Below, one piece after another: positions 29,001 to 29,997 of a stretch of 64,000 nucleotides of DNA. Numbering within the stretch: position 1 is the first letter of the stretch; the number at the start of each line of letters is the position of its first letter. Below the pieces are notes generated by a model that saw only the letters and a program-made list of their open reading frames with translations, made no database searches and was not told the DNA's origin. The stretch comes from Acidobacteriota bacterium (GTDB lineage: Bacteria; Acidobacteriota; Terriglobia; Terriglobales; Acidobacteriaceae): the NCBI GenBank assembly GCA_021791875.1, contig JAJYVU010000001.1, forward strand, positions 1 through 64,000, given 5' to 3'. The translations under genes were made by a program, and so were the position numbers.

Positions 29001-29189
29001 ATGAGGTTCCAGGGCGCAAGTCGGAAATACATTGCGCTGGCGGCCCTCGCGCTGTTAGTCGGGCTGGCGTGGTTTACGCTGGGGCCGGGCAAGATCCGCG
29101 ATGTGGTTTGCCTGATCCTCGGCTTCTTTGCCTTCCGCATCCTCCTTACGCAGGAGCGTAAGCCGGATGCGCCCGATGAGGTTTTGTAA
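29001..29189 (+). CDS. Small two-helix membrane protein between tRNA genes, 62 aa
   Basis: ATG 29001 has GGGAAGGA about five bases upstream, a strong ribosome binding site. The product is MRFQGASRKYIALAAL..., with two hydrophobic segments (about 9-27 and 32-48) separated by GPGKIRD, and a polar tail (TQERKPDAPDEVL). No family is recognised. Its location inside the tRNA-tuf transcript, six bases before the broken tRNA-Thr, means its mRNA would be exposed to tRNA processing. Confidence 0.65.
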   Translation: MRFQGASRKYIALAALALLVGLAWFTLGPGKIRDVVCLILGFFAFRILLTQERKPDAPDEVL

Positions 29190-29194
29190 GAAGG

Positions 29195-29320
29195 GCTGAT
29201 GGTGCTCAGTTGGTAGAGCACTCCCTTGGTAAGCAGAGCGGCAGCGTCGCAAGACGCGTTGCCGCGACAATAGAGAGAGCTGTCACCGGTTCTGTTTTTT
29301 TATCCCGGTCATCAGCTCCA
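29195..29320 (+). pseudogene. Broken tRNA-Thr copy with two insertions
   Basis: The sequence matches the intact tRNA-Thr(GGU) at 29355-29430 in its acceptor, D-arm, anticodon loop (TTGGTAA), T-stem and CCA end, but is 126 instead of 76 bases long. The 3' strand of the anticodon stem is replaced by about 42 extra bases. These contain a nested hairpin GCGGCA...TGCCGC around GCGTC-GCAA-GACGC (GNRA loop). The T-loop is expanded by a TGTTTTTTT run. The universal U8 is also G. The flanks (GTTTTGTAAGAAGG versus GTTTTGTATGAAGG) are duplicated too, showing a tandem duplication. Confidence 0.8.
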
Positions 29321-29354
29321 GAGTGCCGAGGGCTTGTAGGGTTTTGTATGAAGG

Positions 29355-29430
<76 letters not shown>

Positions 29431-29437
29431 GATTTTG

Positions 29438-29546
29438 GCTGTCAGTTGTGAGTTCTCAGTCGTCAGTTCACGATCGTTCCGCTTCTACTGCGAAAAATCA
29501 GCAGAAGCACCCGGACTGAGAACTGGCAGCTGGGGACTGGCAACTT
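29438..29546. repeat. Heptad-phased CAGT inverted repeat between tRNA-Thr and tRNA-Gly
   Basis: The left arm has CAGT/GAGT words at 29443, 29450, 29457 and 29464, exactly seven bases apart. The right arm has ACTG/GCTG/ACTT words at 29514, 29521, 29528, 29535 and 29542, the reverse complement in the same phase. An inner hairpin (GCTTCT...AGAAGC, 29481-29509) caps the structure. Confidence 0.75.
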
Positions 29547-29688: not shown

Positions 29689-29997
29689 ATGTTTGAACAG
29701 GCGGTGCTCCCCGTACAGAACGTGCAGGCATATTCCGAGGTCGCGGGCGCGGTCGAGCTCGCTTTCGCCTCCGGACGTGTGGACAATTTTCTGCGCGACG
29801 TGCAGCGCTCCGGAGTGCGTATCCGCCAGTTCGAGGCGGTTCTGGCGCTCGGGCTGCTCGGCCGGGGCATGGCGGCAAAGTATGGCGCGCTCGGAGACTC
29901 CGACCGCGGCCTGATCCGTGAGTTGTATCTCCGGCTGGTCGAGCGGGTCCCCACCGCGCTGCGCGCAAAGTATCTCAGAATTTACGCCTACTACTGA
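29689..29997 (+). CDS. Hypothetical protein between tRNA-Gly and tuf, 102 aa
   Basis: A soluble, mostly helical protein without signal peptide: MFEQAVLPVQNVQAYSEVAGAVELAFASGRVDNFLRDVQ..., ending LVERVPTALRAKYLRIYAYY. I recognise no family. It is co-directional with the tRNAs and tuf and ends 81 bases before tuf. A weak purine stretch (GGGAACGGCGAACG) precedes the ATG. Composition is like its neighbours, so it is plausible but unproven. Confidence 0.55.
   Translation: MFEQAVLPVQNVQAYSEVAGAVELAFASGRVDNFLRDVQRSGVRIRQFEAVLALGLLGRGMAAKYGALGDSDRGLIRELYLRLVERVPTALRAKYLRIYAYY

Follow-up and report, generated by a model that had tools for sequence, protein, structure and literature searches.

The rtT RNA, a product of the E. 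coli tyrT operon that is not itself a tRNA, is said to have been described by Bosl and Kersten in 1991, and it carries short tRNA-Tyr 3' ends. The rtT elements belong to the BIME/REP repeats (PMC2965389). REP palindromes include the GTAG and CGTC super-families (PMC3733652). A second kind of non-tRNA product is 3'ETS-LeuZ, a spacer RNA of the glyW-cysT-leuZ tRNA transcript for which sponge activity has been shown (PMC6191717). Fragments of tRNA genes also arise commonly from the integration of mobile elements (PMC9897764), and tRNA-like modules are found in YrlA, a bacterial Y RNA that is a tRNA mimic (RF02553).

Here we describe an interrupted copy of tRNA-Thr(GGU), termed T-star, which lies in a 64,000-nt stretch of DNA from an Acidobacteriota bacterium (hereafter the window) and carries a REP-like hairpin, X. 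T-star has in common with rtT its place in a tRNA operon, as a putative non-tRNA product, its repeated tRNA pieces and its link to palindromic repeats; unlike rtT, it comprises nearly the whole of tRNA-Thr, with a specific hairpin after G39 and an insert in the T-loop, and it belongs to a different phylum. The rtT Rfam model gave no match to T-star at either gathering or relaxed thresholds. As with 3'ETS-LeuZ, T-star would be a spacer freed from a tRNA transcript by tRNA processing, whereas 3'ETS-LeuZ is a transcript tail with a terminator rather than a tRNA duplicate. The likeness to REP palindromes lies in the short palindromic stem and small loop of X (predicted by folding), in the CGTC with which some X copies begin and in similar low-copy palindromes elsewhere in the family. 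REP palindromes, however, occur in many copies per genome, while X is confined to the tRNA-Thr locus, and in place of the unpaired 5' GTAG/CGTC tag of a REP, the GTC of X's CGTC pairs with GAC; other copies of X begin CAGA, GGTC, TATC or AGTC. A partial copy beside an intact tRNA is also what mobile-element integration leaves (PMC9897764), but T-star has no element between the copies, a 160-nt spacing and a conserved internal hairpin. YrlA shares with T-star the presence of tRNA-like modules in a non-tRNA RNA, and its model gave the only Rfam match, at 26.7 bits against a gathering threshold of 69; this match joined the T arm to the D arm of the next tRNA and was rejected as a tandem artefact, and no Rfam family matches T-star. 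In the open-access literature we found no account of such a tRNA-Thr copy in Acidobacteriota, and we place T-star among tRNA-operon repeat or spacer elements.

Results

The tRNA cluster of the window runs in the order tRNA-Thr(UGU), tRNA-Tyr, a small ORF, T-star, tRNA-Thr(GGU), tRNA-Gly, a second small ORF, tuf and rpsJ. T-star starts 160 nt upstream of the start of the intact tRNA-Thr(GGU) on the same strand, leaving 34 nt between the two copies (Table 1), and the duplicated unit also takes in about 15 nt of 5' flank (GGTTTTGTAnGAAGG). A genome of the same genus, G002, has one copy of the flank, one tRNA and no T-star.

The small ORF between tRNA-Tyr and tRNA-Thr (29001-29189) encodes a membrane-protein-like product of 62 aa and stops 5 nt before T-star; it has no Pfam match, and ORFs resembling it are present in the clusters of relatives. 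The conserved 102-aa ORF between tRNA-Gly and tuf (29689-29997), likewise with no Pfam match, has counterparts in this interval in most family loci, as 102 or 108-122 aa forms. An imperfect 19-nt inverted repeat fills the spacer between tRNA-Thr and tRNA-Gly (29443-29532), and relatives have similar low-complexity GCTGANGGCTGAC spacers near these two tRNAs.

Table 1. Positions of T-star, its parts and its intact partner gene in the window
Feature	Position	Strand	Basis or remark
Upstream flank GGTTTTGTAAGAAGG, repeated before the intact gene at 29340-29354	29180..29194	+	sequence
T-star, interrupted tRNA-Thr(GGU) copy, 126 nt	29195..29320	+	sequence; no tRNA called by ARAGORN or Rfam
tRNA 5' half to G39: acceptor 5' strand, D arm, anticodon 5' strand, loop TTGGTAA	29195..29233	+	
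Insert X: hairpin at 29238-29265, GCAA loop, 2-nt GT bulge in 3' arm	29234..29268	+	fold
Purine-rich linker AATAGAGAGAGCT	29269..29281	+	
T arm with enlarged T-loop	29282..29309	+	sequence
Acceptor 3' strand and CCA	29310..29320	+	identical to intact copy
Intact tRNA-Thr(GGU), partner copy of T-star	29355..29430	+	ARAGORN, Rfam

An earlier sequence-only reading had described T-star as a tandem tRNA-Thr(GGU) copy holding a GCAA-capped hairpin, as both sequence and fold confirm, with its acceptor, D-arm, anticodon loop, T-stem and CCA preserved, as is evident from direct reading. The 5' half matches that of the intact gene (29355-29393) at 37 of 39 bases; both acceptor strands (29195-29201 and 29310-29316), the D stem, the anticodon 5' strand and loop together with G39 (CTCCC-TTGGTAA and G39, 29221-29233) and the T-stem (ACCGG/CCGGT, 29285-29289 and 29305-29309) are all kept. 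The insert had been taken to replace the 3' strand of the anticodon stem, and it does, with about 47 nt standing in for the six (GGAGAG) directly before GTCACC in the intact gene, for a net gain of 41; its position can be refined to directly after G39, at the 3' edge of the loop. Within it, X folds into an 11-bp hairpin (GCGGCAGCGTC-GCAA-GACGCGTTGCCGC) with a computed free energy of -19.8 kcal/mol (z -2.9). The nine-base expansion of the T-loop noted earlier is likewise present, as TGTTTTTTT at 29293-29301. Scored with the family covariance models, this copy reaches 98.8-106.7 bits, being itself part of the training set.

A functional tRNA has a 7-nt anticodon loop closed by 5 bp, a 7-nt T-loop and U8, and in T-star these have given way to the 47-nt replacement, nine additional T-loop bases and a U8 to G change (U8A9 reads GT, 29202-29203). 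With the elbow and anticodon stem broken in this way, established knowledge of tRNAs leaves no room for tRNA function, which the sequence-only reading had called unlikely and which the sequence excludes. That the insert is an intron, whose removal would restore a working tRNA, is scarcely credible: its site in the anticodon loop is where tRNA introns usually lie, and one copy (G176) keeps its anticodon stem in full with the insert at the 3' edge of the loop, but the 3' strand of the stem is lost in most copies, the T-loop insert would stay behind, an intact gene lies adjacent and a group I intron would be far longer. T-star had no Rfam match to a group I or other tRNA intron, and the spliced 76-nt product that had been envisaged falls with the retained T-loop insert.

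A search of related genomes for the same insertion, proposed earlier, yielded further cases. Among relatives, a second copy with the layout of the window was found in another genus (G020), and a gapped pattern search of 398 family genomes gave a third (G231). The pattern search in named genomes returned 51 matches, three of them genuine (Acidobacteriaceae bacterium JOPF049, Terriglobia bacterium S3 and Candidatus Sulfotelmatobacter JOPF005), whose site sequences are those of G231, G176 and G213. Covariance modeling, with a first model built from five T-star copies, identified 12 hairpin-bearing copies in 11 of the 398 family genomes, spread over six genera and scoring 44.7-106.7 bits, while intact tRNA-Thr reaches at most 40.5 bits. 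Samples of the order and class contained no further T-star genome and none outside the family; T-star is a feature of tRNA-tuf clusters in one family of Terriglobia (Acidobacteriota).

In every case T-star adjoins an intact tRNA-Thr(GGU), always co-directionally, lying downstream rather than upstream of it in several genomes; in G100, two copies flank the intact gene on both sides. In G231 (L039 / L096) the pair has been relocated upstream of tRNA-Tyr, with no tRNA-Thr(GGU) before tRNA-Gly. Its presence is patchy: five of the nine genomes of genus g66 have it, close relatives lack it, and of the near neighbors G130 and G207 one has it, between direct repeats, and the other cleanly lacks it. 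When presence was mapped onto a tree of the protein encoded between tRNA-Gly and tuf, a single short protein giving weak support, 8 changes were needed for 9 tips (223 of 500 label shuffles), with no clustering. As this distribution is scattered, and no more clustered than random labels, T-star is dispensable. The direct repeats shared by T-star and the intact gene, some 40-49 bp long and roughly 120-160 bp apart, should allow it to be deleted easily, and a loss or gain of this kind separates G130 from G207.

Such a copy, non-functional as a tRNA and found in a set with many draft assemblies, might be an ordinary tRNA pseudogene or an assembly error. We consider this highly improbable, since the same design recurs in independent assemblies from six genera and almost none of about 45 surveyed loci without T-star has any partial tRNA-Thr copy. 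The recurrence of one hairpin-in-tRNA design in other genera, together with the paired changes described below, argues that T-star is not random or private decay. To that extent the earlier doubt about plain decay was well founded; the acceptor and CCA whose preservation it stressed are not the best-conserved part: in 5 of the 12 copies the acceptor stem has only one of its sides, the missing one being either the 5' side (G231 and the second G100 copy) or the 3' side (G075, G130 and the first G100 copy).

In all 12 copies the anticodon loop ends in TAAG and a hairpin begins a few nucleotides past G39; an A-rich purine linker (about 11-16 nt) separates this hairpin from the 5' strand of the T arm. 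The U-rich T-loop insert is present in all nine copies with a complete 3' half; the first G100 copy, G075 and G130 have lost the acceptor 3' half, and their T arm now takes the form of a short hairpin of the GTCAC...GTGAC type. The changes in X preserve its pairing. In an alignment of seven short-tip hairpins (A4), 70 of 70 pair cells are standard and four pairs have changed on both sides, a covariation score reached by none of 500 shuffles; among nine full copies (A5), seven pairs show changes on both sides, compared to 2.8 expected, and 1 of 500 shuffles scored as high, where pair cells count sequences rather than independent events and the alignments consist of 5-9 related sequences. Controls with slid alignments fail, giving zero or one such pair. 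The X hairpin is a conserved structured element whose compensatory changes exceed those of shuffles across these 5-9 sequences. Its 3' arm retains CGU(U/A/C) opposite CAG (CGG in G297) and is not a perfect palindrome; as correction between inverted repeats would erase such an imperfection, its persistence argues that correction alone does not explain the pairing. Furthermore, comparison of G297 with G213, from one genus, shows that the D arm and anticodon strand of G297 have decayed, with bases lost and changed, whereas its hairpin stems, T-stem and acceptor have been retained.

X occurs once per genome (twice in G100) and only at the tRNA-Thr locus. A hairpin-only model, built from short-tipped hairpins and missing the window's own long-tipped one, gave strong matches at the T-star locus only, with chance-level matches or weak REP-like neighbors elsewhere. 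We rejected X as a copy of a genome-wide repeat, as its core motif is not repeated in the window's own genome beyond chance.

Two further pairings were considered and set aside. For a pseudoknot between the A-rich linker and the U-rich T-loop, each copy's own pairs were no better than cross-species or shuffled ones (permutation p 0.75). An alternative acceptor helix between GAGCYG in the linker and a 3' CRGCUC, appealing in G000, G231 and G297, was not above shuffles.

The sequence-only reading had also suggested an internal terminator. As a transcription attenuator, the stem AGAGCTG/CGGTTCT and the T7 in the T-loop would end some transcripts before tRNA-Thr, tRNA-Gly and tuf, and a terminator-like site is indeed found at 29276-29301, with a similar one in G231. 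These are, however, the only 2 of the 12 copies with such a stem and U-run, the window holds two terminator-like sites where shuffles predict 1.9, and T-star lies downstream of tRNA-Thr in several genomes. The terminator was therefore rejected as lacking conservation and standing at chance level, and attenuation by this route is improbable.

We next turn to the origin of X. A low-copy REP-like element, present in 14 of 200 family genomes at 1-8 copies each, has a 3' hairpin that the core of X (GCAGCGRAGCGTNGC) and its A-rich tail resemble. This element lies upstream of secE/tRNA-Trp, rpsL, rpsM and other genes and is also found at the junctions of partial copies of tRNA-Tyr, tRNA-Gly and tRNA-Thr, and REP-like junctions were seen in tRNA-Tyr (G031), tRNA-Gly (G075, G100, G029 and G213) and tRNA-Thr (G018, G009, G029 and L061).

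A low-copy REP-like double-hairpin element, GGGTGAAGCGCGGAGCGAGCGC...GAGGGCGnAGCAGCGnAGCGTTGCGGAGCCCTnGAAAAG (L153, L154, L155, L156, L160, L161 and L179-L203), present in some family genomes at 1-8 copies, often lies in translation operons, before rpsL, rpsM, tRNA-Trp/secE and tRNA-Tyr or after tRNA-Gly, and several times immediately 5' of a start codon or tRNA; it has no Rfam family. In G031 (L201), a REP-like element followed by a tRNA-Tyr 3' half lies just downstream of the intact tRNA-Tyr. A second REP-like type, TYGAGGCG..., directly follows tRNA 5' fragments, with the intact tRNA next (L018, L029, L094, L097 and L061); the fragments measure 10 or 39 nt for tRNA-Thr and 11-38 nt for tRNA-Gly. 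In G009 and G029 this type is at the end of a tRNA-Thr 5' half and in G213 at that of a tRNA-Gly 5' half, and a break at position 38/39 recurs in the two different tRNAs. Additionally, in L099 (the first copy of G157) and L102 (G075), a hairpin with an A-rich tail is inserted in the tRNA-Thr D-loop after CTCAGTTG, and the G075 copy has an anticodon-loop hairpin as well.

Palindromes in the style of X at other sites and in other partial tRNA copies point to an origin at the DNA level. Partial duplication of a tRNA gene, with a palindrome at its junction, has therefore happened repeatedly in this cluster, and the T-star of the window has the look of one such event that was retained. The tRNA parts of T-star follow the host's tRNA-Thr in all nine full copies, a sign of gene conversion or (repeated) local formation.

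The junction of X with the tRNA lies at the edge of the anticodon loop, a position included among the integrase targets of tRNA genes. It could accordingly be read as the leftover attachment site of an integrative element aimed at the tRNA-Thr anticodon loop, which we judge very improbable: the copies lie only 34 nt apart, an interval that contains neither an element nor an integrase, and the 3' half is retained along with a conserved hairpin. Phages, plasmids and viral contigs contained no relative of T-star, all seven viral pattern matches being due to chance; a viral or plasmid origin was rejected, the matches in Variovorax plasmids covering the tRNA 5' half only.

Discussion

The recurrent architecture, the compensatory pairing, the restriction of the hairpin to one locus and the lost tRNA function, as read from the sequences compared here, leave two main interpretations. 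We lean, with confidence a little short of even, toward a tRNA-Thr duplicate with a REP-like hairpin that acts at the RNA level in the tRNA-tuf cluster, over a by-product of events in DNA. T-star would have arisen by partial tandem duplication of tRNA-Thr(GGU), with a REP-like hairpin lodged in the anticodon arm after G39 and the T-loop enlarged by a U-rich insert. T-star would then be transcribed together with the neighboring tRNAs, as expected from its being co-directional in every case, and processing of the flanking mature tRNAs by RNase P and 3'-end nucleases would free it as a hairpin-protected spacer RNA. Once freed, it would most probably work at the RNA level, either by affecting how the cluster transcript is stabilized, processed or attenuated or by serving as a small RNA. 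This proposal draws on the analogy with E. coli rtT and 3'ETS-LeuZ, and a regulatory or spacer RNA role is possible for T-star.

The competing interpretation, a serious contender that we nonetheless rate as the less probable, holds that a REP-like palindrome has repeatedly lodged at the junctions of partial tandem tRNA duplications, that the duplicate is functionless and that what looks like conservation comes from hairpin-prone DNA (GNA/GNRA mini-hairpin loops), from concerted evolution and from ascertainment. It would account for the REP-like junctions in three tRNAs, for the tRNA-Thr break after position 39 that recurs with a different element in G009 and G029, and for its counterpart at the corresponding place of tRNA-Gly in G213, for the resemblance of the X core to the 3' hairpin of a REP-like repeat and for the patchy distribution of T-star. 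No genome has X as a repeat, however; in all full copies it is accompanied by the T-loop insert and the A-rich linker, and it outlasts the tRNA part in G297; moreover, double changes that preserve pairing alongside an imperfect 3' arm are unexpected from neutral decay or palindrome correction.

Under the RNA-level interpretation that we favor, T-star may represent a new class of tRNA-derived structured RNA in the Terriglobia tRNA-tuf cluster: a disarmed tRNA-Thr with a putative protein- or RNA-binding hairpin in the anticodon arm, a U-tract in the T-loop and a regulatory or spacer role, a proposal we advance tentatively and with some doubt. Genes for tRNAs are usually sorted into working genes and debris, and T-star is a non-functional copy that keeps a hairpin through paired mutations across several genera as its tRNA portion decays. 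For genome annotators, it is a recognizable class that current tools skip. It also offers a specific case in which to test how new RNA elements of a translation operon may develop from duplicated tRNAs and short palindromes.
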